Assembly: GCA_947090755.1 (NCBI GenBank)
Contig: CAMUPF010000010.1
Span: forward strand, 1-57,042
Length of the DNA stretch: 57,042 nucleotides
Origin: an uncultured Candidatus Melainabacteria bacterium
GTDB taxonomy: Bacteria > Cyanobacteriota > Vampirovibrionia > Gastranaerophilales > Gastranaerophilaceae
Direction: 5' to 3'
Part shown: piece by piece, positions 4,899 through 56,282 of the stretch
Layout of the letters: each line of letters starts with the position of its first letter
Position numbering within the stretch: the stretch's first letter is position 1
Program-made: the position numbers and the translations under genes
The notes under the pieces: generated by a model
Seen by the model: only the letters and a program-made list of their open reading frames with translations
What the model was told of the DNA's origin: nothing
Database searches by the model: none

Positions 4899-5453
4899 TC
4901 ATAACTCAAAGTTTTTATAAGAAAAATCAATTTCTTCTTGTGAAATCCCAATGTATCTTAGTGTAATAGATGGGGAACTATGGTTCAGAATACTTTGTAA
5001 AAGTGCTATATCGTTAAACTGTTTATAGTGATGGTAGCCAAAAGTTTTCCTCATTGTATGAGTTCCAATAGCTCCGACTTCAAGTTTTAAAGTGTTAACA
5101 GCGTCATTAATAAACCTATATACAATAGAACGATGCATTCTTGAACCTTTATCACCCAAAAATAAGGGGGCATTTAACCTCTGTACCGAATTATTTTCTA
5201 AATATTCATCTATTAACAATTTCAATTTATTATTTAATGGGAATTTTTTATATTTACCGGTTTTCTTTTCTCGGATAATTATACTTGATTTATTTTTGAC
5301 ATCGACTATATCTAACGCTAAAATATCCGAAATTCTAAGTCCAGTATTAATTCCAAACGAGAAAATCAATCTGTTTCTTATACTTGTTTCAGCCAAAAAA
5401 TGTTCGATTTTAGTAATATCTTCCTTTCTACGTATCGGTTCTACAATGTTCAC
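4899..5453 (-). CDS. Minimal tyrosine recombinase (island left edge)
   Basis: The protein of 184 residues consists of little more than the catalytic domain of a phage-integrase-family tyrosine recombinase. The catalytic set is complete: R40 (TGLRISD), K63/K64 (REKKTGK), H132 and R135 (THTMRKTFG), H158 (LNHSS) and the nucleophile Y167 (LRYIGI). The usual N-terminal core-binding domain is missing. GTG start with AAAGGAGGT seven bases upstream. The gene reads away from a perfect 26-bp inverted repeat at 5499-5623, which makes that repeat a plausible substrate. Its closest relative in the window is the recombinase at 10469-11008, on the other side of the cargo and pointing the other way. Confidence 0.92.
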   Translation of the reverse strand: MNIVEPIRRKEDITKIEHFLAETSIRNRLIFSFGINTGLRISDILALDIVDVKNKSSIIIREKKTGKYKKFPLNNKLKLLIDEYLENNSVQRLNAPLFLGDKGSRMHRSIVYRFINDAVNTLKLEVGAIGTHTMRKTFGYHHYKQFNDIALLQSILNHSSPSITLRYIGISQEEIDFSYKNFEL

Positions 5454-5498
5454 GTTTTTACCTCCTTTGATGTAATTAAAAGAAATAAAAACTTTTTC

Positions 5499-5623
5499 TG
5501 AAACATAATATCCAATATGGACTTTTTAGTGATATAATATATTCTTAAGGAAGTAATATAAATTAGAAAATCTTGCAAAGTGTGTATATAGAATAGTAAG
5601 TCCATATTGGATATTATGTTTCA
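5499..5623. repeat. Perfect 26-bp inverted repeat around a 73-bp promoter segment (candidate inverton)
   Basis: The left arm 5499-5524 starts TGAAACATAATATCCAATAT. It is the exact reverse complement of the right arm 5598-5623, which ends ATATTGGATATTATGTTTCA. The 73-bp segment between holds an extended -10 promoter pointing right. The layout (recombinase gene, inverted repeats, promoter between them, target operon) is that of phase-variable invertible promoters such as those flipped by Mpi of Bacteroides fragilis. The arms are too far apart to be a simple terminator hairpin. The inversion itself is inferred. Confidence 0.75.
5530..5538 (+). promoter_or_regulatory. Extended -10 promoter inside the inverted repeat
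   Basis: TGATATAAT is a perfect extended -10 (TGnTATAAT). There is no good -35 at 16-18 nt spacing, which extended -10 promoters tolerate. In the orientation shown it would drive the methyltransferase operon (start 5664). If the segment flipped it would face the recombinase gene at 5453. Confidence 0.55.
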
Positions 5624-5663
5624 AACTCATAACTCTTTGCAATTAATCACAAAGAGAATAAAC

Positions 5664-6833
5664 ATGGCTAATAATAATCTAAAACAAGCTAAAAAAGCAA
5701 AAAATGACGAGTTTTATACTCAATGGTGCGATATCGAAAAAGAGATAATGGCTTATATTGACTATAACCCTAATGTTTTCAGAGATAAAACAGTTTTGCT
5801 ACCTTGCGACGACCCGGAATGGAGTAATTTTACAAAATTTTTCGCCCAAAATTTTGAATTCTTCGGATTAAAAAAATTAATCAGTACTAGTTATGCATAT
5901 GAAAGTAAAAATATAGAACAATATTATCAACCAAGCCTATTTGAACAAAACAGTCCCAATTATGATGTTGATAAAACTAAAATTAAAGGAAAAATATTCA
6001 CATTAGAACACGACACAAATAAAAACGGCGTTATAGATATAGAAGACTTGGAATGGAGCTATCTTGAAGGGGACGGGGACTTTAGAAGTAACGAAGTCAA
6101 AAAGCTTAGAGATGAAGCCGATATAATTATAACGAACCCGCCGTTTTCTTTATTTAGAGATTTTTTGGCCTGGGTTTTTGAAGCCAACAAAAGTTTTATT
6201 ATGATAGGTAATATAAACTGTTTAACCTATAAAGAGGTTTTCTTGAAAATAAAAGAAAATGATGCGTGGTTAGGAACCGGAATGGGACGATGGATTTCCG
6301 GATTTATTGTACCGGAAAGCTATCAATTATACGGCAGTGAGGCAAGAATCGAGAATGGTAATAGAATCGTAGCTACAAACAATTGTTTATGGCTTACAAA
6401 TTTAGACCATGGGAAAAGACATCAGCCATTAGAACTTATGACAATGGCAGATAATATTAAGCATAGCAAGCATAAAGAAATCAGGACGCAAAAATATCCC
6501 CAATATGATAATTTCCAAGCAATAGAAGTTCCCTTTACCGATGCAATACCATCAGATTATGAGGGAGTTATGGGGGTTCCTGTAACATTTTTAGATAAAT
6601 ATAATCCTGAGCAGTTTGAAATCGTGGCACTCGGCAATTTAAACGGTTTCCCGCCCAATAAAACTTACATTAATCCTATATCTCATATAAATGGAAAAGA
6701 AAAAAAGAACGAAATGATAAATTCTGTATTAACTTTAAAAGGAAACGATAAAAAAGGAAATTTTTATACGGCAGATAATATTGATTATCATATTTATGCG
6801 CCATACGCAAGAATTTTAATAAAAAAGAGGTAA
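5664..6833 (+). CDS. EcoRI-family adenine-specific DNA methyltransferase
   Basis: Transfers a methyl group from SAM to adenine in DNA. It has the layout of the EcoRI methylase family: NDEFYTQWCDIEKEI near the N-terminus, VLLPCDDPEWSNF (SAM-binding region), the catalytic DIIITNPPFSLFRDFL (NPPF motif, about residue 155), then MIGNINCLTYKEVF and the C-terminal VPVTFLDKYNPEQFEI. ATG at 5664 is chosen (389 residues): AAAGAG lies seven bases upstream and the family homology starts here, while the longer TTG frame begins inside the inverted-repeat arm. It precedes the DUF262-HNH gene by 3 nt, so the two form an operon. Expression may be switched by the inverted promoter upstream. Recognition sequence cannot be predicted. 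Confidence 0.9.
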   Translation: MANNNLKQAKKAKNDEFYTQWCDIEKEIMAYIDYNPNVFRDKTVLLPCDDPEWSNFTKFFAQNFEFFGLKKLISTSYAYESKNIEQYYQPSLFEQNSPNYDVDKTKIKGKIFTLEHDTNKNGVIDIEDLEWSYLEGDGDFRSNEVKKLRDEADIIITNPPFSLFRDFLAWVFEANKSFIMIGNINCLTYKEVFLKIKENDAWLGTGMGRWISGFIVPESYQLYGSEARIENGNRIVATNNCLWLTNLDHGKRHQPLELMTMADNIKHSKHKEIRTQKYPQYDNFQAIEVPFTDAIPSDYEGVMGVPVTFLDKYNPEQFEIVALGNLNGFPPNKTYINPISHINGKEKKNEMINSVLTLKGNDKKGNFYTADNIDYHIYAPYARILIKKR

Positions 6834-6836
6834 ATA

Positions 6837-7997
6837 ATGAAAACTGAACTACATACAGAATGGACTGTTGAAGAGATTTGCAAAGGTTTTGTATACAATC
6901 AATCAGAAGGTAAAGGTTTATTTGGCATGAATGGCAAACTCACCATTCAACCTGAATACCAACGTAATTATATTTATGCAGATGGCAAAAAAGATGTCGC
7001 GGTTATTGACTCTGTATTAAAAGGTTACCCGATAGGATTAATATACTTCAACAGACGTGAAGACGGTCAACTTGAGGTTCTTGACGGACAACAAAGAATA
7101 ACAAGCTTAGGCCGTTTTGTTACAAGTAAATTTGCTATTAAACAGGATGGTATGGAACAATATTTCAGAGGGATTGCAAAAGATAAACAGGAAAAAATCC
7201 TTAAAACTCCACTTTTAGTCTATGTTTGCGAAGGAACAGAAAGCGAAATCAAAGAATGGTTTAAGACTATAAATATTATTGGTGTGCCGTTAAATCATCA
7301 AGAAGTGTTAAATGCAATTTATTCAGGTACATTTGTAACACTGGCAAAAGAAGAATTTAGTAATTCTCAAAATAATAATATTAATAAATGGAGTTCTTAT
7401 ATTTCCGGGGTCGTTAATCGTCAAGAATATCTGGAATGTGCTCTAAACTGGGTTAGCAAAGGACATATTGAAGAATATATGTCCATTCATAGACATGACA
7501 CTAATATTACTGAATTAAAAACATACTTTAATTCAATAATCGACTGGATAGATGGTTTATTTGATGAAATCCATTCAGAAATGAAAAATATTGAATGGGG
7601 TAGATTATATGAAACTTACCACAGACGACCTTATAACCAGTCTGAACTTAATAAAAAAGTAGCCGACTTATACGCAGATGAATATGTAAAAAACAAAAAA
7701 GGCATATTTGAATACGTTTTAGGAGATTGTCAAGATACTAAACTACTTGAAATACGTATCTTTGAGGAACGTGATAAAAAGACAGTTTATGCACGACAAA
7801 CACAAGAAGCTCAACAAAAAGGGATTTCAAATTGTCCGTTATGTGCCTTAGGCTCTGATAACAACAAAAATCGTATTTGGAAAATACAAGAAATGGATGC
7901 CGACCATGTAACAGCTTGGAGCAAAGGTGGTTCTACGGAGATTTCGAATTGTCAAATGCTATGTAAAACACATAATAGAGCAAAAGGCAATAAGTAA
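6837..7997 (+). CDS. DUF262 and HNH nuclease protein, candidate restriction partner
   Basis: The N-terminal half is a DUF262 domain (ParB/sulfiredoxin-like): [13 protein letters not shown] and [18 protein letters not shown]262 in GmrSD-type enzymes hydrolyses nucleotide. The C-terminus is an HNH nuclease: [35 protein letters not shown], with the zinc Cys pairs and the catalytic His present. 386 residues, RBS AGAGG, starting 3 nt after the methyltransferase stop. The pairing suggests that the methyltransferase marks self DNA and this protein cleaves unmarked or modified DNA, that is, a restriction-modification system. The operon arrangement is seen; the function is inferred. A type IV, modification-dependent role is an alternative. 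Confidence 0.85.
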
Positions 7998-8010
7998 GTA
8001 ATAGAATTCA

Positions 8011-8760
8011 TCAAAGAGTATCTGTCATTTCTTGCAACATCTGCTCACTTTCAAATTTCAATGAATTATAAAATTCTTCAAAATATTTATAAAAAATATC
8101 TTTATTTACTAATACATCAAAATCGATAGGCACATATTCTTTGTCTGAACGGCCGAAATAATTTTGAATCATAAACCGAACTTTATTATCTTTTTCCCAA
8201 GCCAATAATTTATAGTTAGTAAATTCTTCAATATGACAAACTCCGAAATGTTTTGTTTTTAGATCTGTTAAAAATTTTTCAAACTCAGAATATAATGCAC
8301 TTATTTCAATTAAAGCGTTAGCTCTTTGAGTATTGGTTGTAAAATCGACTTCAACCGTTACAGATATAGGTTCGTTATCACCAAAACTCTGAATATCATT
8401 CAAACAATCATCGGTTTCAAAATCGTAACTAAATTGAATTTTATCAGTTACTTCACAATCTTTTAATGGATATGGAATTATTTCATCTTCTTGCACAAAC
8501 CATCTGTCTAAATCTTGCCAATATATCCAATATGATAGTAAATGAACCAGATCCGGTCTCGGGTAATGATTTGAATTATCATTTATTGGATAAGGACATG
8601 CTCCTCCATTAAATACAATATAATCAAACCATTTATAACCTTTGCATTTTTCATTGACAAGTTCTTTGTCACCATCCATAATTGCTAGTTTCCAACCGAT
8701 TGAATCTTCGGTTTTATATGCCACTTTACAGTATGGATACATAATAGTCTGTTTATTCAT
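8011..8760 (-). CDS. Hypothetical protein in the defence island
   Basis: I do not recognise this protein of 249 residues. It is acidic and rich in aromatic residues (KGYKWFDYIVFNGG, LLSYWIYWQDLDRWFVQEDE), with no signal peptide, membrane helix or known catalytic motif, so it is probably a soluble cytoplasmic protein. ATG with GGGAAAG upstream. It is convergent with the DUF262-HNH gene (13 nt apart) and lies downstream of hipA on the same strand with an 88-nt gap, so it may be a third cistron of the hipBA transcript or stand alone. Its place between a restriction-like pair and a toxin-antitoxin pair suggests an accessory defence or immunity role, which is only inference. Confidence 0.75.
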   Translation of the reverse strand: MNKQTIMYPYCKVAYKTEDSIGWKLAIMDGDKELVNEKCKGYKWFDYIVFNGGACPYPINDNSNHYPRPDLVHLLSYWIYWQDLDRWFVQEDEIIPYPLKDCEVTDKIQFSYDFETDDCLNDIQSFGDNEPISVTVEVDFTTNTQRANALIEISALYSEFEKFLTDLKTKHFGVCHIEEFTNYKLLAWEKDNKVRFMIQNYFGRSDKEYVPIDFDVLVNKDIFYKYFEEFYNSLKFESEQMLQEMTDTL

Positions 8761-8848
8761 AATTCTTTCCCTTTAAAGGAATAATAAAACTGAAATGAAA
8801 CAGCAAAATGAAGATTAAATAGACTTTCAGATTAAGATTCATAGAAAA

Positions 8849-9955
8849 TTACTCAAATAACTTTTTACATTTTGCTTGAATATCTAATGCAATATTTTTT
8901 GCAGATTTTTCACTTAGTCCGATATTTTTAGCAACAGCCAAAATATCATCTAGAGACGGATTTTTCCCTTCGCCGTTTATTGTTGTTGCATGTTCCCCGT
9001 TAAACGAAGAACTATAAGTTAAATCATACGCAGGAGATAAATGCCATTCTTTTTTATTGTCGTCATAAAGATAAGAAAAATTCTTTGAATGATCATCACG
9101 ATTGTGAGCAAACACATTGAAACACATTAACCTAAATAATTGTTCAATATCTTCATAATTTCTTGTAAGTTCGAGCGTAAGTTTCATTAACAAATTATAA
9201 TCAAGATTAGGAAGTCTGTGGCTTGTTTCTAATAAGCCGCTTACTGATACCATATGCACTTTTTTACCGTTTTCGCGATCAAATCTTTTTATGCCAAAAT
9301 AGCCTGAACAAATTTCTGATGGGAAAAGCTTTGTTTCTATCATATTTATTCCGCAATCTTTTGCACATAGTGAATATTGGTATTCTTTTTCCCCAATATT
9401 TTTAGGGTCAGTTGATGACGGAAATTTAATTATCCAATCTTCATTATTTATAGAAGTCAAAATTTTCGGCCTTGCACCACCTGATGAACCGCCTAACTGA
9501 AAAAGTTCATCCAGATTGTCTGAGTTTTGTGATTCTAAAATTTTTGAACATTCTTGAGCGAGAATATCAAGGTCAGAAACATTGTTTTTTGTTTCAAATT
9601 TATGTTCGGGTTTATATGTTAAAGCACCCATCCCACTTTTTTGAACAACTGCAAGTCGATTGAGATTGTCAATTTCAGCGGGGTTTATTTTGTTTTTTAA
9701 AAACAACCTGTCAACCAGTAATCTTCCCCAGCCATCAGGCAAACTGTCATTAAAAACTCCAAATAACCCGTCAAAAGGTTCATATTTGGGGATAAAAACT
9801 TTTTTGATAAGCGACAAACTAAAAGGTGATATACTAAACCCGTTATTTAACCAATCTGAATCGTATTCAAATGCGACAACTCTTTCGGGTGTTTTAGCAA
9901 GAGTACCGACTAAAATATCATTATAAAAGACTTTTAAATATTTATAGTTGTCCAT
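8849..9955 (-). CDS. hipA: HipA-family serine/threonine kinase toxin
   Basis: HipA toxins phosphorylate glutamyl-tRNA synthetase or related targets and slow growth until neutralised by HipB. The couple_hipA-like N-terminus (GTLAKTPERVVAFEYD, PFSLSL, FNDSLPDGWGRLL) and the kinase part are both present. SSGGARPK (157-164) is the regulatory Ser loop, IIKFPSS holds the ATP-binding Lys, HNRDDHSKNF (284-293) is the catalytic loop and SPAYDLT (307-313) the metal-binding Asp. At 368 residues it is shorter than E. coli HipA (about 440), but all motifs are intact. It overlaps hipB by 14 nt, as expected for an antitoxin-first operon. Confidence 0.93.
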   Translation of the reverse strand: MDNYKYLKVFYNDILVGTLAKTPERVVAFEYDSDWLNNGFSISPFSLSLIKKVFIPKYEPFDGLFGVFNDSLPDGWGRLLVDRLFLKNKINPAEIDNLNRLAVVQKSGMGALTYKPEHKFETKNNVSDLDILAQECSKILESQNSDNLDELFQLGGSSGGARPKILTSINNEDWIIKFPSSTDPKNIGEKEYQYSLCAKDCGINMIETKLFPSEICSGYFGIKRFDRENGKKVHMVSVSGLLETSHRLPNLDYNLLMKLTLELTRNYEDIEQLFRLMCFNVFAHNRDDHSKNFSYLYDDNKKEWHLSPAYDLTYSSSFNGEHATTINGEGKNPSLDDILAVAKNIGLSEKSAKNIALDIQAKCKKLFE

Positions 9956-10226
9956 TTATAACCTCATCAATAGAATTGTATATTTTTTGTGTAAACAAGT
10001 TTTCAAAATCTTTTTCTAAATTAAGAGCAATCAGAATTTTTATCAAAGAATTCAGTGAAATTTCATACTTTGATTCAAATCTTTTAATAGAGCCCAGACT
10101 AACACCTGATTTTAGAGCAAGTTGAACTTGTGAAATCTTAAGCATTTTTCTCTGTTGCTTAATCTTTTCAACAACTTCTTTTGCAATATCATTAGGAGAT
10201 TTAGTATAAAAAATAAAGTCATTCAT
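9942..10226 (-). CDS. hipB: HipB-like antitoxin, XRE-family regulator
   Basis: The protein of 94 residues has an XRE helix-turn-helix (IKQQRKMLKISQVQLALKSG, then VSLGSIKRFESK). It should bind HipA and repress its own operon. The ATG at 10226 directly abuts a 16-bp perfect palindrome and lies 7 nt after a -10 box, so the mRNA appears leaderless (see the promoter entry). The C-terminal 14 nt overlap the start of hipA, which suggests translational coupling. The N-terminus (MNDFIFYTKSPNDIAKEVVEK) is short and the protein is of usual antitoxin size. Confidence 0.9.
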   Translation of the reverse strand: MNDFIFYTKSPNDIAKEVVEKIKQQRKMLKISQVQLALKSGVSLGSIKRFESKYEISLNSLIKILIALNLEKDFENLFTQKIYNSIDEVINGQL

Positions 10227-10284
10227 AGATAATATATTATCTCATTTTTACCTAAAAGTCAATATTTAGATAATATATTATCTA
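10227..10284 (-). promoter_or_regulatory. hipBA promoter with two palindromic operators
   Basis: Two palindromes share the core AGATAATATATTATCT. Operator 1 is at 10227-10242; operator 2 at 10267-10284 is extended to 18 bp. Their centres are 41 bp apart, about four helical turns, so dimers would sit on one face. On the minus strand TTGACT (10257-10262) and TAATAT (10234-10239) are separated by exactly 17 bp. The -10 lies inside operator 1 and the -35 between the operators. The expected start is at or next to the hipB ATG. HipB autorepression is known for the family; these sites are inferred from sequence. Confidence 0.75.
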
Positions 10285-10468
10285 GAATGCAGTATGATTT
10301 TTAAAATATTAAAACACAACATTAGAATGATATGTTGTATTTTTTGAGATTGGGGGTAAATGGAAGAGGGGTAAATGGAGTGGGTGCTTGTGTTCAAATT
10401 TGTTGCAAGGCTTTATTTTTGCTGTCTTTTAGGGCATTAATGTTGTGGCTCAAAACCTTGAGGTACAA

Positions 10469-11008
10469 ATGAACATCGTCGAACCGATAAAAAGCATAGA
10501 AGATATTCAAAACATTAAGCGAATTCTTTCCAAGAAACCACGCAACGCGCTCCTTTTCAGCTTCGGAATAAATAGCGGACTAAGAATTGCCGACATCCTC
10601 TCGCTTGACGTCAAAGACGTAAAAGGCAAAGACTATATAGAATTAAGAGAAAAGAAAACTAATAAATACAAAAAATTCCCGATTAACGAAAATTTGCAAG
10701 CCGAAATAGAGGAATTCGTAAAAGATAAACCCGACAACATCCCACTATTTTATACTCAGAAACATTATCGGCTGGATAGAGCCCAAGCATACCGAATTAT
10801 AAACAAAGCCGCCAGAATGGTAGGAATTAAAGGCAGAATCGGAACTCACACACTACGCAAAACCTTCGGCTATCATTTTTATCAACAATATGACGATATC
10901 GTAATGCTGCAGAAGATTTTTAACCACTCCACCCCCTCAATCACCCTCCGCTACATCGGCATCGAGCAGGAAGACATTGATGAAGTGTATAGAAATTTTT
11001 ATTTGTAA
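10469..11008 (+). CDS. Minimal tyrosine recombinase (second copy)
   Basis: A paralogue of the recombinase at 4899-5453 with the same start (MNIVEPI) and a complete catalytic set: GLRIADIL, REKKTNKYKKFPI, THTLRKTFGYHFY, FNHSTPS and the nucleophile Tyr in LRYIGIEQ. It also lacks a core-binding domain. ATG at 10469 (179 residues) is preferred over a GTG at 10445, because GAGGT precedes it and the paralogue starts at the same residue. Together the two genes bracket the methyltransferase-hipBA cargo and point outward. I do not see an inverted repeat like the 26-bp one beside this copy. The intergenic stretch 11009-11240 holds nothing I recognise. Confidence 0.92.
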   Translation: MNIVEPIKSIEDIQNIKRILSKKPRNALLFSFGINSGLRIADILSLDVKDVKGKDYIELREKKTNKYKKFPINENLQAEIEEFVKDKPDNIPLFYTQKHYRLDRAQAYRIINKAARMVGIKGRIGTHTLRKTFGYHFYQQYDDIVMLQKIFNHSTPSITLRYIGIEQEDIDEVYRNFYL

Positions 11009-11240
11009 ATAACAAATTTTATTAAATATTAATTATAAATGATTTTAGTACTATTAGCTAGAAATAAGTTTTGTTAAGTTAAAACATGGTCATATATAAT
11101 CTGATTATTACCATCTCTCTTAAACTTTAAGGCACATATGCGTTATTTCTTGATATTAACAGAATTATTTTTGTGTTAGTATTTACTAAAGTAACATTTT
11201 GTTTATGAGCAGTTTTAAATTTAATACAATAATAGGAATA

Positions 11241-12767
11241 ATGGATATGGAAAAAAGAAAACAAAGAAGAAAAGTTAATGCCGCAAGAATATGTTTTGGA
11301 ATCAGTAGAATTGGTTATACACCTGCAAGTGCAATATGCGATATTATTGACAATGCGGTATCAGCTAATGCTAAAAATATCCATATAGAAATAATCCAAA
11401 AAAGTAATTCATCAAATCCTAATAGAAAAAATAATGTTCAGCAATATTTAATAATTGATGATGGGAATGGGATGAATAAAGAAAGGATAGGAAATGCCTT
11501 AGATTTAGGCTCTAGTGAATTATATTATTCTGAAGAAACATTATCAAAATTTGGGCTTGGTTTAAAATCTGCATCATTTGCCCAAGGAAAACGCTTAGAA
11601 ATAATATCTGGCGATGGTTCTGGTGAAATTTATAAAGAATATGTAGATTTAGAAGAAATAGAAGATGATTATTTTAGTGTCGAATGCAATTTAGATGATC
11701 ATGATAATGAGTTAGTTGATAAATATTTTGATGATAAAAGAGGAACTATTATTAGGATATCTAAAATACATACAAACAATCATCCAAGTATTAAGTCAAT
11801 TATAACAGAATTAAAAGATAGACTTGGAGTTATATACTATTATTTTATAAAAAAGGATTTACATATATTTATCAATAACGAAGAAATTGATGCTGTAGAT
11901 CCATTATTCACAGAAGAGGCAGGAGATAATAATTTAGATGAAAACGAATGGGATGGAAAATCTGTACAATGGATTTTAAGACCGGTTGATATTACGTTAG
12001 ATGCAGAAAATGATGTCAATGGAAAAATTGAAATTACAACGTTGCCACACCCTAGGGTAAGGAAAGATGAAGGGATATCAGATGCTGATGTCAGAAAAAA
12101 ATATCGTATTTCTGCTGCAAATTATGGATTTTATATATATAGAAATGGCAGATTAATAAATTGGGCCAATAGATTAGAGGGAATTATTCCTCAAGATCAA
12201 GATTACTATGCTTTCCGTGGCAGAATTAATATTCAATCAGATGCAGATGATGCATTTAATATAGATGTAAGTAAGTCCCACATAATCTTGTCAGAAGATG
12301 CTAGAAGTGCATTAGATGATTATATTTTAGATTACAAAAGCAAATGCAAAAATGCATGGCAAGGTGCGTGGCAAAAATACCAAGCACAAACATCGGAAAG
12401 CTCAAATGAAAGGGCAAACAGTATTGCTATCGAAGTAAATGATTATTTAGACGATCCATTAAATGAAGATGATGATGACCAAAATGAAAGAGAAAAACGA
12501 GAAGAACAGATTAATACAGAAATGCGACGCAAGGAAACAAATGACACTATTGCTCGTATAATTGATGAAGAAGGAGAAGAAAAAAACGAAGAACAAATAA
12601 CTCCGGAAGATATTATGAAAACCATGAAAGGAAGCTCTACAATAAGCGATTTAGCTTGTATTTTTAAGGTGCCAAGTATACAAGATAATATAATATGGGA
12701 GCCTTATGCCGATGCTGAAAAGAAACAATGCGTAAGAATATCTAAAAATCATAGGTTTGCCAAATAA
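11241..12767 (+). CDS. GHKL/MORC-like ATPase, probably C-terminally truncated
   Basis: The N-terminal GHKL (Hsp90/MutL/MORC-type) ATP-binding domain is clear: CDIIDNAVSANAKNIHIEI (N box), YLIIDDGNGMNKERI (G1), SKFGLGLKSASFAQGK (G2). A second conserved part follows (KVRK-like HPRVRKDEGISD, YGFYIYRNGRLINWAN), then an acidic coiled region rich in Glu/Asp (about 400-450). Proteins of this type occur as single-gene or multi-gene defence ATPases, but the role here is unknown. ATG at 11241 follows AGGA; TTG/ATG starts up to 42 nt earlier are possible. The last codons (RISKNHRFAK) run into a truncated MuB-like gene on the other strand, so the natural C-terminus may be lost. Confidence 0.8.
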   Translation: MDMEKRKQRRKVNAARICFGISRIGYTPASAICDIIDNAVSANAKNIHIEIIQKSNSSNPNRKNNVQQYLIIDDGNGMNKERIGNALDLGSSELYYSEETLSKFGLGLKSASFAQGKRLEIISGDGSGEIYKEYVDLEEIEDDYFSVECNLDDHDNELVDKYFDDKRGTIIRISKIHTNNHPSIKSIITELKDRLGVIYYYFIKKDLHIFINNEEIDAVDPLFTEEAGDNNLDENEWDGKSVQWILRPVDITLDAENDVNGKIEITTLPHPRVRKDEGISDADVRKKYRISAANYGFYIYRNGRLINWANRLEGIIPQDQDYYAFRGRINIQSDADDAFNIDVSKSHIILSEDARSALDDYILDYKSKCKNAWQGAWQKYQAQTSESSNERANSIAIEVNDYLDDPLNEDDDDQNEREKREEQINTEMRRKETNDTIARIIDEEGEEKNEEQITPEDIMKTMKGSSTISDLACIFKVPSIQDNIIWEPYADAEKKQCVRISKNHRFAK

Positions 12768-13161
12768 TCGGGCAGTCGGTCTCGTCATGCAAATCCCTGA
12801 GGATTTCGACAGTTTTAAAATTGTTCATCAGGTAGTCGATTTCATCAATAAAAATCACTTTCGGATTGGCCTTGAGTTTTTTAACCACTAGGTTGAAGTT
12901 GTCCGAAGTTAAGTACCTCGGCAATTCGTCCATTTCTTTTATCAACCCATCAAGCAGCCATCTGCCAGTCATAAGGTTTGAGGCTCGAAGATAAATTCCA
13001 TCATACTTGCACGCAAGCCACAAGGCAGTTTGAGTTTTACCGAGCCCAGGTTCACAATAAACAAGCCCCATTTTTGGAATGTTTTTGGGTTTGTTTACCA
13101 GATTTTCTACAAGTCCGATAAAATTTTTGACATTGTTCGTCCTTACAAAAGTCTTATTCAT
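12742..13161 (-). pseudogene. MuB/TniB-like AAA ATPase, truncated
   Basis: The transposition ATPase that delivers target DNA to a Mu-type transposase. Only 139 residues remain of a family usually well over 200. Walker A (CEPGLGKT, 36-43) and Walker B (VIFIDEID) are intact. The frame ends at DCPIIWQTYDF, before the sensor and C-terminal parts. The last 26 nt overlap the end of the GHKL gene on the + strand, so both proteins lose similarity at the same point. That suggests a deletion or insertion joint near 12755. It overlaps the transposase gene by 8 nt upstream, as in intact Mu-like operons. Probably non-functional or reduced. Confidence 0.8.
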
Positions 13162-14854
13162 ATAAAAGCCTATACTCCTTTGTTTGTTTAAATTCCGAAA
13201 TCCAAGGGTTGTTTGGATCGTGTTTGATTAAGTATTCATATTTTTGCGAATTATTTCTAAAAACAGTTTGAACAGCATTTGAACTCTCTTTGAACGCAGA
13301 TTGAACGGGTGGTGAAATTTCTTCATCCATTTTGGTTTCAAGATATTTTATTTCTTCGGTCGAAAAATAGTTCTTGACTGCGTTTACGGTTTTCTTTTTG
13401 AGTTGTTTTTGCCGAACGATTTTTTGTTTGTAGTCCTTATAGTCTTTGACGTCGCCCAATAATTTTGCCATCGGGTGGGTTTCGGGTACACGCTCAGCCG
13501 TGCATAAATACTCGCCTTTCGGGGTGAAAACCTTGATTTTTGTAAGGTCAAAGAGGTTGTATTTGATTAGAACTTTACTTTTGAAGCCGTAAAGCCGTTC
13601 GTCAAAATAGTCGCACCCCAAGAACCTAATACCATTTCTCTGAATTGTTTTAACTTCGGTTGCAAGCATCAAATCGTCAAGTGTATTTATATCAATATTT
13701 TGAGTTCTTCGTTCTGCTAAAACTTCGGCAATCGTTTTGTTTGGAACATTAGGACAAGGCTGTGAGTTTTTGAAACTCAGCCACATATCAATCATCTTTA
13801 TTGTTTCTTCTATGGTCGGAATATAGTCATTGTGCCAAGCGGAGTGGAGTTTTTCATTTCGCATCAGGTAAGCCGGTTTGTTTGCGATGTTGCTTCCGAC
13901 ATAGCTTGGCATAAGCTTTTCAAAGCCTTCTTGAAACTCTTTGAAAAATCGCTCGATGACTTTCGCTCTGGCGTTATAAGGTCGGGCAAAAACCGTTTCA
14001 ATCCCTAGTTTTGAATAAAGTCCTTGAAATCCGAGTTCGTTAAATCCCTTGTCATTGGTGAAATATTTCGCCCTAAATGCTCTGCCGTTATCCTGATAAA
14101 TGATTTTTGGCACCATATCGAGGTTTATTATTGCGTTTCGAAGGGCGGATGCGATGCACTGGGTATTTTCTTCAAGCATAATCTCGTAACCCACAAGGGC
14201 GGTCGATTTCCAATCCAAAAAGCCAACTAAAGTCGCGCGACTTGGTTTACCCGTGAACGGATTTATCACCTGAAACGCAAGTTTATGTCCGTCTGCGACA
14301 AGAATATCGCCGACTTCCAATAGCGAAGCGTCGCGTTTGATATAAGGCTCAACCTTGTCAGACAAAGCTTTTTCGCCATCTCGGGCAAGCACCCATTTGT
14401 CATAATTATTCACCTTAAACCATTTTGCATAGCGGCGAAAAGTCGCGTCGGCGGGGATAAAATCCTGCCCCTGTTCTTTTAGTTTGTATTTAGTAAGGGC
14501 GGTGGCTTTGCCGATAGAAATTCGATTTGGGTGTAAAAGTAGGCTCATAAAAATTTTGATTTCTTCGTCGGTCAAAGTGGTTCTAAAATCGCCAATTTTA
14601 GAATACCTGTATTGAGGGAGGAGTTTTTCGTAGTCTTCGGAACCATCAAGCATTGCATTCCAGCGATGAAGCGAGCCGCGAGAGACTTTGCCCAAAACCT
14701 GACGCAGATGCGAATCCGTCGTGTTGTGCAATTTGACAAAATCATAATCGGCTTGGATTTTGATATTCGATTTTCGGCGAAACTCAAGCCATTTGTGGAC
14801 TAAATCAAGCCTTGCAAGGGCGATTTGCTTTGCTTTTTCCGGTATGTATGTCAT
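13154..14854 (-). CDS. Mu-like DDE transposase (MuA/TniA type)
   Basis: The protein of 566 residues has an N-terminal DNA-binding region (HTH-like SRGSLHRWNAML), an RNase-H-fold integrase core and a C-terminal Mu-type beta barrel. The acid triad is visible: D188 (ILVADGHKL), D255 (IIYQDNGRAF) and E301 (AKVIERFFKEF). The barrel region shows CDYFDERLYGFKSKVLIKYN. It catalyses strand transfer of its element. The ATG precedes a MuB-like gene with 8 nt overlap. Upstream (to the right) lie repeated sequences with many TTGCACT/AGTGCAA sites that could be transposase-binding sites. With MuB truncated, autonomous activity is doubtful. Confidence 0.92.
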   Translation of the reverse strand: MTYIPEKAKQIALARLDLVHKWLEFRRKSNIKIQADYDFVKLHNTTDSHLRQVLGKVSRGSLHRWNAMLDGSEDYEKLLPQYRYSKIGDFRTTLTDEEIKIFMSLLLHPNRISIGKATALTKYKLKEQGQDFIPADATFRRYAKWFKVNNYDKWVLARDGEKALSDKVEPYIKRDASLLEVGDILVADGHKLAFQVINPFTGKPSRATLVGFLDWKSTALVGYEIMLEENTQCIASALRNAIINLDMVPKIIYQDNGRAFRAKYFTNDKGFNELGFQGLYSKLGIETVFARPYNARAKVIERFFKEFQEGFEKLMPSYVGSNIANKPAYLMRNEKLHSAWHNDYIPTIEETIKMIDMWLSFKNSQPCPNVPNKTIAEVLAERRTQNIDINTLDDLMLATEVKTIQRNGIRFLGCDYFDERLYGFKSKVLIKYNLFDLTKIKVFTPKGEYLCTAERVPETHPMAKLLGDVKDYKDYKQKIVRQKQLKKKTVNAVKNYFSTEEIKYLETKMDEEISPPVQSAFKESSNAVQTVFRNNSQKYEYLIKHDPNNPWISEFKQTKEYRLLYE

Positions 14855-14868
14855 ATTTAAAAATCCTT

Positions 14869-15480
14869 ACATACACATTAATCGCTCTTGTTGAGGAAAA
14901 TATCAAGTCCTAAATCCTAATCTCAGAGACATTTCGACACATCTCATTTTGTGAGACAAATTATTTTTGCACTTTGTTACACTGTTTTGCACTCGGAGAA
15001 GGTTTGATGTGGTGCAGGATAGACCCTGAAACAAGTTCAGGGTGATGGGTTATTGGTGCAAAAGAGTGCAGAAATAGAGACAAAAGTGCAAAAATTGATC
15101 CGTAAATCTCAACACTAAAAAATCGCCTATAGAGGCGATAGTGTGGGCGTTTGCGTTATATAAACCGCCATCCAAAAGTCTCTAATACATTATATCCCTA
15201 ATAGATTATAGTTGAAACAGTAGGGTATTTGGGCTATTTAGAACAAACGATTTAAAAACTTAGTGCAAATTAGTGCAAAAATAGAGACAATAGAACTATA
15301 CATGCCAGAGTAGAGATTGGAACTCTCCTTAAATCTGGAAAAACAGTCTAGATATATCACACAGCATCTTAGTTTGTATTAAATTTTAAATTATCTTAGC
15401 ACATTCATTAATCGCTCTTGTTTAAAGAAAAGTCAAGTGTTTTTGTTTAAAATATTATTAAGAAGTTATTAAGTTATTTT
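14869..15480. repeat. Long non-coding module, copy A
   Basis: The whole 620-bp gap between the transposase and RhuM genes is this module. Segment 1 (14919-15194) starts with AATCTCAGAGACATTTCGAC. It contains inverted TTGCACT and AGTGCAA sites, an imperfect palindrome CCCTGAA/TTCAGGG and a minus-strand terminator (ATCGCC/GGCGAT with six T, 15117-15139). Segment 2 (15260-15326) holds GTGCAAAAATAGAGACA and a tRNA-3'-end-like stretch (CATGCCAGAGTAGAGATT). Segment 3 (15392-15480) holds CATTAATCGCTCTTGTT and runs to the RhuM stop. A short copy of segment 3 is at 14869-14908. Copies B and C are at 16532-17168 and 19421-19704. No gene is seen in it. Confidence 0.85.
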
Positions 15481-16472
15481 TTATTTTTCTTTTCTAAAAT
15501 CTTTTGCGTCTGTTTTACGCTTTCTATAAAATGTTTTTCAACTGCGGAAAGCTCGTCTTTAACTGTTTCTTTATATTTAGCATACTCTGCCAGTGCTTTA
15601 TTCTCAGCCTCAAGTTTTGATATGGTTCCAGAGTTTTCAAGTAATTCCGACCCTGTCATTTTAATAAAATCATCAAGTTTTAAAATCCAATCTTTCATTG
15701 TCATTGGAACTTGTCTAATTGCTTGCAATTCAGCAAATTCAAGGTAGGCTGAAGTAATTCTGTTTAAAATATTCAATTCTTTTTCATCCAGATAGTTTTT
15801 TGCAACAGTAACTTCGTTTTTTCTTGGATGATTACCTTTAAAAACTGTTAAGCCCATGTTATCTTTGGCACTATCTGCTCTTAAATAAATAATTTCAGCA
15901 GCAGTATGACCATGGGCTGCAAAATGCATTTTATTTTGAACAACTTTAAAGAATTTTATCGTTTCATCTGCCTTAGGGCTATAATCAATGCTTGTTGCAT
16001 AAATATCTAAAATCTGGCGGTAAAAAACTTTTTCAGATGAGCGAATATCTCTAATTCTCTCTAAAAGTTCTTTCCAATACCCGCCACCACCGGATTGTTT
16101 TAATAATTCATCATTAAGAGCAAACCCTTTAATCATATATTCTTTAAGGGTTTGCGTTGCCCAAATTCTAAATTGAGTACCTCTTAAAGATTTAACGCGA
16201 TAACCGACAGAAATTATAACATCAAGGTTATAATGTTTTGTATTGTAGTTTTTTCCGTCATTGGCAGTTATTCGGAAATTCCGAACAACTGAATTTTCAT
16301 CAAGTTCACCTTCTTCAAAAATATGGGAAATATGTTCGCTAATATTTGCCTTACTTGATTGAAACAACTCAACCATTTGATTTTGTGTAAGCCAGACGGT
16401 TTCATTTTCAATTTTTACATCTATTTTTGTTTTGCCGTCTTGGGTTTGATAAATTATTATATTATTTTCCAT
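15474..16472 (-). CDS. RhuM-family protein
   Basis: The protein of 332 residues matches the RhuM virulence family pattern: MENNIIIYQTQDGKTKIDVK, ETVWLTQNQMVELFQSSKANI, HIFEEGELDENSVVRNFR, YNLDVIISVGYRVKS, RGTQFRIWATQTLKEYMIKG and a C-terminal coiled region. RhuM was named in Salmonella pathogenicity island 3; homologues are common in mobile and defence islands. The biochemical role is not established, although the N-terminal part resembles phage anti-repressor/Bro-like DNA-binding modules. The gene is flanked by copies A and B of the long module, and its 3' end lies inside the conserved segment 3. It is likely expressed from within module B. Confidence 0.88.
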   Translation of the reverse strand: MENNIIIYQTQDGKTKIDVKIENETVWLTQNQMVELFQSSKANISEHISHIFEEGELDENSVVRNFRITANDGKNYNTKHYNLDVIISVGYRVKSLRGTQFRIWATQTLKEYMIKGFALNDELLKQSGGGGYWKELLERIRDIRSSEKVFYRQILDIYATSIDYSPKADETIKFFKVVQNKMHFAAHGHTAAEIIYLRADSAKDNMGLTVFKGNHPRKNEVTVAKNYLDEKELNILNRITSAYLEFAELQAIRQVPMTMKDWILKLDDFIKMTGSELLENSGTISKLEAENKALAEYAKYKETVKDELSAVEKHFIESVKQTQKILEKKNKK

Positions 16473-16531
16473 TAAAACATTATTCTCCTAAAGCGTATTA
16501 TATAACAAAAACAGGGAAATTGCTCTTAGTA

Positions 16532-17168
16532 TCTCAATCTCAAAGACATTTCGACACATCTCATTTTATGAGACAAATTATTTTTGCACTTTGTTGCACT
16601 GTTTTGCACTCGGGGATAGGTTGATTCGGCGGGAGATAGACCTTGAAACAAGTTCAGGGCAACAGATTTGCGGTGCAAAAGAGTGCAAGAATAGAGATAA
16701 AAGTGCAAAAAATGACCCACAAATCTCAACACTAAAAAATCGCCTCAAAGGGCGATGGTGTGGGTGATTGCGTTATATTAACTGCCATCTAAAAGTCTCT
16801 AATAAGTTATACTCAACACTAAAAAATCGCCTCAAAGGGCGATGGTGCGGGTATTTAGTTTATATAAAACGCCATTTAAAAGTCTCTGATACATTATAAT
16901 TATATAGGTCATATTGGTGCAAAAGAATGCAAGAATAGAGACATTAGAACTATACATGCCAGAGTAGAGATTGGAACTCTTAAAAAACCTGAAAATCCAC
17001 TCGCCTTAGATTATACGACGTTAACTTGAGTATAAAATTTTGAATTTCTTATTTTTCTATAACTTTCCTTTCGTTTTATCTTAGCATACACATTAATTGC
17101 TCTTGTTCAAAGGAAAGTCAAGTGTTTTTGTTAAAAATTTTATTAAGAAACTATTAAGTTATTTTTTT
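16532..17168. repeat. Long non-coding module, copy B, with internal 87-bp tandem duplication
   Basis: Fills the gap between the RhuM gene and the nuclease-STAND gene. Segment 1 (16532-16811) matches copy A, including the TTGCACT sites, the palindrome and the minus-strand terminator (16734-16756). An 87-bp part (from CTCAACACTAAAAAATCGCC at 16725) is repeated at 16812 with about 85 per cent identity, which duplicates the terminator. Segment 2 (16914-16980) again has the ATAGAGACA and CATGCCAGAGTAGAGATT motifs. Segment 3 (17080-17168) again has CATTAATTGCTCTTGTT and ends in the 3' end of the next gene. No coding capacity is seen. Confidence 0.85.
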
Positions 17169-19364
17169 TAGAGTAAGAAATAAATCTTTAATATTTTCAT
17201 TATCATCTTGCATTTGCTTTAAATAATTAAGATGATCTTTTGAATTTTCATTTTCATTGGATTCATCAAGCTTTTGCTGTGCTAGTAGTTCCTCAATTGT
17301 GTTTTCAAGTTCTCTTAAATCGCAACCTATTATATCAAATTTCCCTATTAAATTCTCTAATTTTTCTTTATCACATTCAAGAGTATACGGATCACAATCA
17401 CAATTATCTATTGAGTTTTCTATCAAATCATCTAGGTTAACAATTATATTCACTTTTATACTGCTACCATATTGTTCAATTAGATCTTCATCATAATCCT
17501 CAAGAAAATTCATCAAAATATCCAAATCATATACACTATTGCAAGAATTAACATCCTTAGTAACTGAATCCATAAAATTAATAATAAAACTATTAACAAT
17601 TTCGTTTTCATCAAAAATTGAGCTTGTAAGCTTATTTAGAAAATTTTCCATTTCTGATAGTTTATGATCTTTAACTATATAAGAAAGTTCGGACTGTAAC
17701 TTATCAAGCAATGCTATATCTTCAGTTTTAATTATTATGTCAAACAACAAGTCAACTAACCTATACTGCCAATTATTTAAATTATATTGTTTAACTTTTT
17801 CAAAAAGTATATAGGCATATGTTTCATCAACATTTTCTTTACCAATTAAGGAAGCCTCTATCCAAATAAATTGATCAACAGTATCTGCAATTTCTATAAA
17901 ATCAGAAACTATATTATTTTCAACAATATAGTTTTCAAGAAAATCAGTTATTGATGGATTACAAAAAGATATACCATATGGATTTGTGTTAATAAAATCG
18001 CCTTCAAGAATTTTTAAACATTTTCTAAAATCTAAATCTGTAAAATTTTCTAAATATAATTTAGAACAAATATTTTTTGAAATTTCTTTTACCGCTTGTT
18101 TGCAATTCGGTTTCCAATATCTTCCCCCAAGAGAAACTACTGAAAAAAGCACACTTCTTGTCTTGTTATCAATTTGATTTTCAAAAGCATGCTTCCATAT
18201 TTCAGAAGGATTATCTAAATTTTTAATAAATTCACAATGGTAATCTTGCGCAGGTATATTTTCATGAATTTTTAATTTCGTCATAGATTCAATAATCCGA
18301 GGATTATAATTCGGATGTTCAATAATTGAAAAATATCTATGCTCAATTAAGAGATTATCTATATATTCTTGGGGTAATTCAGAAAAATATAAATGACTGT
18401 ATAAAATATCCGCTTTTATTTTTTTAGTGTAATTTTTTAAATCGATAATACATTTTTTAAAATCAAATTTCTCAATCTTTTCATGTAATAACTTTGATTG
18501 TTGCAAAATATATTCTCTTGTAGTGAGTATTAATTTTTTATTTTTTGATTTATTTATACGATTTATAAAAATTATTAAGGATGAGTCTTCATTTTTTGTT
18601 AGATGTGTTTCGCCTAAAAAATCGTCATAATAAAATATTTTTTTTACACTTGGATCTAAGTTGTAAACAGAATATGCATCTTGAATATTTTCTGAAATAT
18701 TAAAAAATTCATACCCGCCATCTGCAACATAGCTATAAACTATCATTTCCGCTAAAGTTGTTTTGCCAACTCCCGGCGCACCTGAGATAACTACAAAATT
18801 CTCACTATTTAAAATATTTTGCGCTTCGCTTACGCTTGGATTAGAAACAAATTTCTTAATTTTTTCTTTTATTTCATCCAATTTAAAACGAGACTCATTT
18901 ACAATATTGCTGTGTAAAATTTGCTCTAATACTTTAGTGCTTGTCAACCACAATTTAAAATGTTCTCTTTCAATTTCGGGAAATTTTGTAATCAAATTAT
19001 TTAAATCATCATTTCCATATATATCAGATGCTGATTTGATAAAAGGATAACATATTTGCATAACTTTATCTTTATTTTTAGGACTTAGCGATTGCGATGT
19101 TGATATTATGTATCTTTTTGGATTTAATTCTTTTATTTTTTCAGCTTCAATCTTTAGTGCATTATATAAATCATTTAACGTAGAGTTCTTATAATGCTTA
19201 CATTGCACAATTAATTGATTTAAGGTATCTTTTGAATGCCTTAAATCAATCCCACCATCTTTACCGGATTTAAATGTTTCAAGCGTAATTGATAACTCTT
19301 TTTGCAATAAATCTCTTGTTAATAATTCAAAATCTTTTGGTGATAATGTTTCAAAATTATACAT
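17154..19364 (-). CDS. Restriction-endonuclease-like and STAND NTPase protein
   Basis: The protein of 736 residues combines an N-terminal Mrr-type PD-(D/E)xK nuclease with a STAND-type NTPase. The nuclease core is GKDGGIDLRH (D40) followed by LIVQCKHYKN (Q54, K56). The NTPase has Walker A GAPGVGKTT (195-203) and a Walker B-like KKIFYYDDFLG, then a helical C-terminal region of about 350 residues that may sense a trigger. Nuclease-STAND fusions are known anti-phage sensors (Avs-like and related nSTAND proteins). At this size it is smaller than classic Avs proteins. No partner gene is adjacent. It sits between module copies B and C and is probably a single-gene defence cassette. Confidence 0.85.
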   Translation of the reverse strand: MYNFETLSPKDFELLTRDLLQKELSITLETFKSGKDGGIDLRHSKDTLNQLIVQCKHYKNSTLNDLYNALKIEAEKIKELNPKRYIISTSQSLSPKNKDKVMQICYPFIKSASDIYGNDDLNNLITKFPEIEREHFKLWLTSTKVLEQILHSNIVNESRFKLDEIKEKIKKFVSNPSVSEAQNILNSENFVVISGAPGVGKTTLAEMIVYSYVADGGYEFFNISENIQDAYSVYNLDPSVKKIFYYDDFLGETHLTKNEDSSLIIFINRINKSKNKKLILTTREYILQQSKLLHEKIEKFDFKKCIIDLKNYTKKIKADILYSHLYFSELPQEYIDNLLIEHRYFSIIEHPNYNPRIIESMTKLKIHENIPAQDYHCEFIKNLDNPSEIWKHAFENQIDNKTRSVLFSVVSLGGRYWKPNCKQAVKEISKNICSKLYLENFTDLDFRKCLKILEGDFINTNPYGISFCNPSITDFLENYIVENNIVSDFIEIADTVDQFIWIEASLIGKENVDETYAYILFEKVKQYNLNNWQYRLVDLLFDIIIKTEDIALLDKLQSELSYIVKDHKLSEMENFLNKLTSSIFDENEIVNSFIINFMDSVTKDVNSCNSVYDLDILMNFLEDYDEDLIEQYGSSIKVNIIVNLDDLIENSIDNCDCDPYTLECDKEKLENLIGKFDIIGCDLRELENTIEELLAQQKLDESNENENSKDHLNYLKQMQDDNENIKDLFLTLKKIT

Positions 19365-19794: not shown

Positions 19795-19801
19795 GTTATA
19801 A

Positions 19802-19875
19802 TAGCTGGGGAGAGACTCGAACTCTCGACCTCTCGGGTATGAGCCGAACGCTCTAGCCAGCTGAGCTACCCAGCC
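19802..19875 (-). tRNA. tRNA-Met (CAT anticodon)
   Basis: Full cloverleaf of 74 nt: acceptor GGCTGGG/CCCAGCT (first pair G-U), D-arm GCTC/GAGC, anticodon arm TTCGG-CTCATAC-CCGAG, variable AGGTC, T-arm GAGAG-TTCGAGT-CTCTC. No CCA is encoded. The lack of a C1-A72 mismatch makes it elongator rather than initiator. A CAT anticodon could also belong to a tRNA-Ile with lysidine; Met is the more likely reading. Confidence 0.92.
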
Positions 19876-20013
19876 ATGCTATTACTTTTTTATTTAATTT
19901 CCAACTTGGTTTTATCTTTATTGAAACAATTTTGAAACAATTTCAGATATTTAATTTTTGTTTAGCCCTATAACTCGCTTATATCAAGCATTTCGGCTTT
20001 ACCTTTGGCAGTT

Positions 20014-36237: not shown

Positions 36238-37252
36238 ATGAAAAGACAAAGTATGAAAACCCGCGATTTATGGGCATTTCCAGTGAGGGGGGGGGGGTAA
36301 GATTGCTTTTACGATGGCAGAAATATTACTCTCCCTCACTATTATCGGCGTAGTTGCAGCGATTACGTTACCGAGTTTAACCGGTAACATTAACGAAAGA
36401 ACGTGGAACACCCAGCGCAAGGCGCTTTATGCCAGATTTTCTCAGGCAATCGCGTTGATGCCCGCGCTTAATGGTTATGGAACGTTAACAGAAGACGAAA
36501 ATGGCAGTGTGACGGCAGACACAGCGGCTGAAACCTTCGTTACTGAAGGTTTATCTAAAGTCTTAAAAATAAACAACATCTGTGACAGTGAACATCTTGC
36601 AGACTGCGGCTTACCCTCAAAAATCACCGACTTAAACGGCGGTACGCCATATTCTGAATTTCCCAAAACTTTGTTAGATTTTAACGATTCTTTCTCTTAC
36701 AATAAAAGCGGCTCTGCAGGCTGGAATCCGTCCTATTCCCAAAAGAATACAAAGGCTGCGGCATTTGAAACACAAAATGGCGAAAGTATTGCCGTATATT
36801 ATAATCCTTTTTGCAGAATTGACAATGGTGCTGAATATGACAATATTCAACCATATATGTGCGCAAATTTCGTTTATGATTTGAACGGCAACAAAGGACC
36901 GAATACTGTTGGAAAAGATATCGGGTTTATCACAGCAATGTATCCGGTAGACTCTGTTGTTGTAGCTCCTATCCCAACACACGGTTACAGCGAATTAATG
37001 ACGCTTGAGAGTGCCCGCAATACGTGCAGAAATTTAAGTGATGAAAGCCGTATGCCTAATATTGAAGAAATTTCATCACTGTTTTACAATTTTAAATTAA
37101 TTGGTAGTAACATACATTTTAACGATACATGGTCAAGCACTTATGCGACCACAGACAAGGTCAAATATGTACACTTTGGAACCGGCCTCAGGAACATAAA
37201 GGTTATTAGCAGAGGTGACAAAGCGTGTACGCTATGCGTGAAACGCTTATAA
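36238..37252 (+). CDS. Type-IV-pilin-like protein 1, frame broken at a poly-G tract (phase-OFF)
   Basis: A good start (AAAGGAG, ATG at 36238) opens a leader MKRQSMKTRDLWAF that runs into 11 G residues (36287-36297) and then a TAA stop. The rest continues in another frame from 36296: KIAFTMAEILLSLTIIGVV, the prepilin-like leader and hydrophobic helix, then INERTWNTQRKALYARFSQ and a C-terminal half with AAAFETQNGESIAVYYNP, ending CTLCVKRL. With 10 or 13 G the two frames would join. Without the upstream start the gene could begin only at ATG 36314, which lacks an RBS. Probably a surface pseudopilin whose production is switched by slippage. Convergent with flgC. Confidence 0.85.
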
Positions 37253-42653: not shown

Positions 42654-43649
42654 TTATCTTTTTACACAAACCGGCTTAATAGTTCTTGATTTGGGTAAAT
42701 ATCCAACCATTGCGCAGTTAGGATCTATGTGTACGGTACCATTGCTATTAACTATTGTTGTGGTGACCATTGTACCAATACCTCCGACCAACGACCTATT
42801 AACAGATAACGCCATTGCTTCTTCCCGTGTTGTTAAACGCGAATCACCCAACGAACGACAATATAACGTAGCCGCATTATAATCCAAAGCCGTACTTCCT
42901 ATATTAGATACCACAGGCGCAACGACCTGCGAATCGGAAGAGTAAAGCGCCACAATACTTCCGATATCCTTTCCGTAAGTATTCGGCCCTTTGCTGCCAT
43001 TCAAATCGTACACGAAATTAACACATACAAGCGGCGATACCATATAGCCGTTTGTGCCTAATGGTCTGGAGCTACATGTAGGGTTATAAAAAACGGCCAC
43101 AGATTCACCGTTCTGGGTTTCAAATGCTGCGGCTTTTGCGTTAATCATAGAGTGCGACCAGACATCATAACTGGCGCTGACCATTGACGTATTAAGTTCC
43201 TTCCAATCAGTAGGGAAACTTATAACCGAGCCATTTGAAGTTGTAAGTTTGTTAGTAATCCCACAATCCGCGAGATGTTGGCTGTCACAGATATTGTTGA
43301 TTTTCAGAACCTTTGCCAAGCCCTCTGTAACAAAGGTTTCAGCGGCTGTGTCCACTGCCTCTTTTGCAGGAGTTTCACCGCTGGCAGAAACCGCTTCGGT
43401 TAAAGTTCCGTAACCGTTAAGTGACGGCATTAGCGCGATTGCTTGGCTGAATCTTGCATATAAAGCTTTTCTTTGTGTATTCCAAGTCCGCTCGTTTATG
43501 TTACCCGTCAAACTCGGTAAAGTTATCGCCGCAACAACACCAATTATTGTCAATGACAAAAGTATCTCCGCCATCGTGAATGCGCAAGACGACCGGCTAA
43601 GAGCAGTCCCCCCCCCCCCTGCACAAATCAATACATTAAGTTTTTTCAT
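42654..43649 (-). CDS. Type-IV-pilin-like protein 2, poly-G tract in frame (phase-ON)
   Basis: The protein of 331 residues has a leader MKKLNVLICAGGGGTALSR encoded across 12 G residues (43608-43619 on the minus strand), then SSCAFTMAEILLSLTIIGVV, the pilin-like N-terminal helix. The next segment LPSLTGNINERTWNTQRKAL is the same protein sequence as pilin-like gene 1. The C-terminal half diverges (AAAFETQNGESVAVFYNPTC, CVNFVYDLNGSKGPNTYGK) and ends PVCVKR. The ATG has AAAGGAT upstream. Changes in the G tract by one or two bases would break the frame. Probably a minor pilin or pseudopilin on the surface. Confidence 0.9.
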   Translation of the reverse strand: MKKLNVLICAGGGGTALSRSSCAFTMAEILLSLTIIGVVAAITLPSLTGNINERTWNTQRKALYARFSQAIALMPSLNGYGTLTEAVSASGETPAKEAVDTAAETFVTEGLAKVLKINNICDSQHLADCGITNKLTTSNGSVISFPTDWKELNTSMVSASYDVWSHSMINAKAAAFETQNGESVAVFYNPTCSSRPLGTNGYMVSPLVCVNFVYDLNGSKGPNTYGKDIGSIVALYSSDSQVVAPVVSNIGSTALDYNAATLYCRSLGDSRLTTREEAMALSVNRSLVGGIGTMVTTTIVNSNGTVHIDPNCAMVGYLPKSRTIKPVCVKR

Positions 43650-56254: not shown

Positions 56255-56282
56255 AAAAAGCTCCCTTTCGGGAGCTTTTTTA
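56255..56282. terminator. Terminator between clpC and pilin-like gene 3
   Basis: Stem AAAAAGCTCCC/GGGAGCTTTTT closing on T residues in both directions, shared by the convergent genes; it overlaps the stop codon of the pilin-like gene. Confidence 0.88.

Follow-up and report, generated by a model that had tools for sequence, protein, structure and literature searches.

A predicted invertible promoter upstream of a type II restriction-modification operon in Gastranaerophilales

Genes and repeats at the locus

The DNA analyzed here (the window, 57,042 nucleotides) belongs to a 1.78-Mb genome of the order Gastranaerophilales, assembled in 53 contigs. On its minus strand, at 4899-5453, there is a gene coding for a tyrosine recombinase of 184 aa with a single catalytic domain (PF00589, 7.5e-26, residues 10-171) and the size of FimB/FimE, proposed here as the invertase of the locus. 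The R, HxxR, H and Y motifs were identified by reading (GLRISD, HTMRK, LNHSS and LRYIG). Translation begins at a GTG (5453), preceded by the Shine-Dalgarno sequence AAAGGAGGT (5460-5468, minus strand; AGGAGGT at 5466-5460). The nearest solved structure is XerH. The NCBIfam Xer and DNA-invertase models matched below their cut-offs, and we have therefore not named the protein FimB or FimE itself.

Next to this gene, 45 bp from its start codon, lies an inverted repeat made up of a left arm, TGAAACATAATATCCAATATGGACTT (5499-5524, as read on the plus strand), and a right arm, AAGTCCATATTGGATATTATGTTTCA (5598-5623, same strand), complementary at 26 of 26 positions and 73 nt apart. The start of the recombinase gene and its ribosome-binding site are thus located immediately beyond the left arm. 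Including the arms, the complete element is 125 bp long (5499-5623), and the 73 bp in between (5525-5597, to which no strand applies) are the segment proposed as invertible, from the geometry of the repeat and the comparison of loci. No other inverted repeat scoring ≥14 with a gap of ca. 40 to 390 bp was detected across the whole window, and the best score in 40 first-order Markov copies of it was 16, compared to 26 for the observed arms. The original prediction of a perfect 26-bp repeat around 73 bp, with a tyrosine recombinase gene directly to its left, was borne out in both respects, and the repeat is the only one of its kind in the window.

To the right of the element, on the plus strand, are an EcoRI-type adenine-specific DNA methyltransferase of 389 aa (5664-6833; PF13651, 6.7e-123; PADLOC MTase_II, 7.5e-93) and, only 3 nt past it, a restriction endonuclease of 386 aa (6837-7997) with GmrSD_N (DUF262) and HNH domains (PF03235 and PF01844), matching PADLOC REase_II over its full length (1.6e-84). 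These adjacent frames confirm the two gene families that had been expected there, from which we predict that the operon codes for a type II restriction-modification (R-M) system. Neither protein had a sequence match among solved structures. An alternative methyltransferase start, a TTG at 5607 inside the right arm, was set aside since the relatives start at the ATG at 5664, most likely the true one. The frames of recombinase, methyltransferase and endonuclease are all open.

Inside the segment, 5 bp from the left arm, there is a perfect extended -10 element, TGATATAAT (5530-5538, plus strand), directed rightwards to the methyltransferase and endonuclease genes, as originally described. There are 19 copies of TGNTATAAT in the window, many of which fall in the CRISPR-like repeats (1-617), and at this frequency a 73-bp segment is expected to hold 0.024 copies. 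The consensus promoter scan, which requires a -35 box, did not list this site, and the predicted promoter rests therefore on the -10 element, in AT-rich DNA, and on the recurrence of TATAAT in relatives. The scan did give a weaker promoter-like match on the minus strand (5534-5562; TTTATA, 17, TATTAT), towards the recombinase. Around the element, no terminator-like site was found in the consensus scan, nor was a flanking target duplication evident in the sequence.

Other features of the window

The CRISPR-like array (1-617) is at the contig end and has a 36-nt repeat, ATTATAACATAATTTAAATTAATAGTAAATCAAAAC, with spacers of about 30 nt and a degenerate last repeat. The region 4899-19364 resembles a defence island that ends near a tRNA-Met (19801-19876) and contains, besides the R-M genes, a HipA/HipB-like pair, an MzaB-like protein and a candidate defence protein of the PDC-S73 type (17154-19364). 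At 10445-11008 there is another member of the recombinase family, with 57% identity to the first; after it come an MzaB-like ATPase (11199-12767) and an AAA ATPase/Mu-type transposase pair (12742-14854). A second switch beside this paralog was rejected, as there was no inverted repeat above the level of shuffled sequence. Elsewhere, there are an 87-bp unit in two tandem copies (16725-16898) and three related pilin-like proteins (36314-37252, 42654-43649 and 56280-57008), with near-identical N-termini in the first two and divergent C-termini in all three.

The recombinase family is associated with inverted repeats

In 75 loci with a total of 79 related recombinase genes, we searched for inverted repeats up to 400 bp from each gene and compared the result with 505 equally sized control placements in that DNA. 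Repeats scoring ≥15 were found at 26 of the 79 genes (33%) versus 7 of the 505 controls (1.4%), and at a score of ≥16 the numbers were 19 and 2, respectively. The association of recombinase and repeat is therefore established for the family, with a clear nearby repeat in only about a third of its members. In the usual layout, the repeat is located 8 to 47 bp past the 3' end of the recombinase gene, with a gap of 91 to 146 bp. In the window and in G277 it is found before the 5' end, with a gap of 73 bp, so that the recombinase gene reads away from the cargo; the layout of G017 is likewise divergent.

The genes that follow recombinase and repeat vary widely. They include an HKD-SNF2 helicase (G208), an HsdS subunit (G230), glycosyltransferases or sugar enzymes (G003, G006, G005, G026 and G196) and some other genes without known function. 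Defence cargo is scattered over the recombinase tree, on which its label changes at least three to four times. Six other recombinase-repeat loci (L241, L244, L250, L251, L254 and L255), whose interiors are conserved in one orientation, precede genes for zinc-ribbon proteins or for large proteins that match no Pfam family.

Homologous loci are found in both orientations

Loci were oriented by their flanks, and the identity of the interiors was compared in direct and reversed form. G127 and G323 (L137/L138), with an EcoRI-type methyltransferase downstream, have flanks that are 94% (left) and 93% (right) identical in direct orientation, but interiors that are 85% identical when inverted and only 56% when direct. 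Similarly, the interior of G155 is 96 to 98% identical to those of G196, G018 and G125 when reversed and 53 to 54% when direct, between flanks 87 to 96% identical in direct orientation. In this set, the cargo of which resembles a split type IIG system, a TTGACA-17-TACTAT match faces the cargo in G155 and the other way in G196 (the one locus of opposite orientation that was scanned). The recombinases of both sets belong to other lineages, being roughly 49 to 65% identical to that of the window, and their genes have another orientation relative to the switch. Comparing orientations was among the checks proposed with the original prediction and, run across related species, it found both of them at homologous loci. 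Inversion thus occurs in this recombinase family, the differences being between species, which do not give its rate. A homologous segment inverted between unchanged flanks, in one case upstream of the same methyltransferase family, supports, together with the recombinase-repeat association, the reading of the window element as an invertible promoter.

Within the window's own clade, the closest recombinases are those of G017 (81% identical) and G277 (80%), which have related arms and adjoin type III methyltransferase-endonuclease operons. A search for the arm (≤3 mismatches) in 383 genomes recovered only the two arms of the window and one site in G026, about 2.9 kb from a recombinase 73% identical to that of the window. 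The arms of G017 and G026 are imperfect. All four loci of the clade (window, G277, G017 and G026) have a perfect TATAAT about 7 to 13 nt inside one arm. For the window and G277 this is the recombinase-side (left) arm, with the TATAAT directed to the cargo, whereas for G017 and G026 it is the cargo-side (right) arm, with the TATAAT directed away from the cargo. This difference is suggestive of inversion in the lineage but is no proof of it, because the interiors are not alignable.

Distribution of the restriction-modification module

The same methyltransferase-endonuclease pair, in the same order, is present in most of 75 GTDB loci from many phyla, most of them without a related recombinase nearby. 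None of these loci had a closely related recombinase and a repeat directly upstream of the pair, and the viral contigs searched yielded no methyltransferase locus that directly adjoined a repeat and had a close recombinase. Relatives of the methyltransferase were detected in 20 of the 383 sampled related genomes, in four of which (window, G127, G323 and G240) a recombinase of the same family is located directly upstream. The recombinase of the window and those of the other three fall into separate supported clades, which implies that module and switch were probably brought together on at least two occasions. In several methyltransferase loci, L030/L042 (G257), L031/L041 (G127), L038 (G240) and L040 (G323), the assembly breaks within the first 50 to 90 codons; the N-terminal part is 80 to 91% identical to that of the window and the remainder about 55 to 65%, as if the rest of the gene had been exchanged between alleles.

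A probable working switch and its alternatives

We consider that the window element is very probably (ca. 85%) a working invertible promoter, or inverton, seen in its ON orientation. The recombinase would act on the two 26-bp arms and flip the segment between them. As sequenced, the extended -10 at 5530-5538 would drive the methyltransferase-endonuclease operon; once flipped, the promoter would face the recombinase, and the operon would lose its main promoter (OFF). Such a redirection of the predicted promoter to the recombinase had been suggested originally and follows from the geometry. Expression of the recombinase would then be higher in OFF than in ON, which may tilt the switch to ON. The opposite-strand match (5534-5562) may provide basal recombinase in ON and basal expression of the operon in OFF, and could blur the two states. 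While the anatomy of the element is established, we infer for this copy the activity of the recombinase, the strength of the promoter, the ON/OFF expression and the ON bias.

This second promoter-like match bears on another reading, in which inversion does occur but both orientations express the operon, and the flip modulates the strength of that expression or mainly affects the recombinase. Promoter-like matches are found on both strands in or near the segment of the window, as they are in L137, L138, L191 and L196. However, the sole perfect -10 of the window segment is on one strand, the opposite-strand matches being weaker, and the G026 segment next to the arm likewise has a perfect -10 on one strand only, so we regard expression from both orientations as unlikely. 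It is quite improbable too that the element derives from a working switch that no longer flips in this lineage, with the operon simply on. The window copy has been seen in a single orientation, and the short or imperfect arms of some relatives (G240 and G017) indicate that decay occurs, but the arms of an unused inverted repeat drift apart, and here they match perfectly, beside a recombinase with an intact frame and a strong ribosome-binding site.

Finally, instead of serving in recombination, the repeat could be the operator of a regulator, form a hairpin in RNA or mark the termini of a small mobile element (MITE). An element of 125 bp with 26-bp terminal repeats does have a MITE-like size. 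However, the arm has no further copy elsewhere in the 1.78-Mb genome, so a repeated element was rejected, and the missing target duplication points the same way, as does the lack of a terminator-like site against this whole group of explanations. None of them would predict the association of repeats with recombinases or the inverted homologous loci, and we give them very little probability.

Relation to known switches and biological meaning

In the fim switch of Escherichia coli, the small tyrosine recombinases FimB and FimE are found beside short inverted repeats (fimS) around a promoter. The window has the same kind of small single-domain recombinase and short repeats, here around a predicted promoter, but it differs in having one recombinase instead of two, a shorter segment of 73 bp flanked by its 26-bp arms, and R-M genes instead of fimbriae as cargo; in the OFF state, its promoter would be turned to the recombinase. 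Invertible promoters and small tyrosine invertases are established (PMC11868660, including the fim timeline, and PMC3090145). Among them, the invertible capsule promoters of Bacteroides (large capsule with Tsr19; PMC3090145) also combine a tyrosine recombinase with an adjacent invertible promoter in a gut bacterium, and many of the loci related to the window's recombinase family control, like them, glycan genes. The window, however, comes from a different phylum and has a defence operon as cargo. Variation of R-M specificity by inversion is established as well (PMC11892184 and PMC4948785). The hsdS shuffling of Mycoplasma pulmonis and Streptococcus pneumoniae described there equally leads from DNA inversion to heterogeneous methylation and restriction, but by recombining specificity genes, while in the window an intact type II operon would be switched through its promoter. 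Invertible promoters have been proposed as a common mechanism controlling methyltransferases (PMC10333322). Other type II modules with an EcoRI-type methyltransferase and a GmrSD_N-HNH endonuclease share this pair of genes and its order, but among the loci compared a switch was seen in addition only in Gastranaerophilales (window, G127, G323 and G240). The predicted switch would therefore belong to a known class, in a lineage for which we found no report of phase variation or inversion (Gastranaerophilales or Vampirovibrionia, mainly in the freely readable literature).

More tentatively, and at somewhat less than even odds, these loci may represent a portable promoter-inversion cassette of Gastranaerophilales, repeatedly attached to defence operons (type II, type III, type IIG-like, HsdS and helicase-nuclease) and to surface-glycan genes. 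With an OFF state that drives the recombinase, the window version would be a self-resetting switch biased to ON, with which whole populations could hedge between the restriction of phages and openness to DNA. Gastranaerophilales are common uncultured gut relatives of cyanobacteria, and reports of promoter inversion are far scarcer for defence genes than for capsules or fimbriae. A type II pair switched as a whole raises the question of how the cell would survive the loss of methylation while the endonuclease remains. With one recombinase family placed over different R-M types, the costs and benefits of switching would be comparable across loci.
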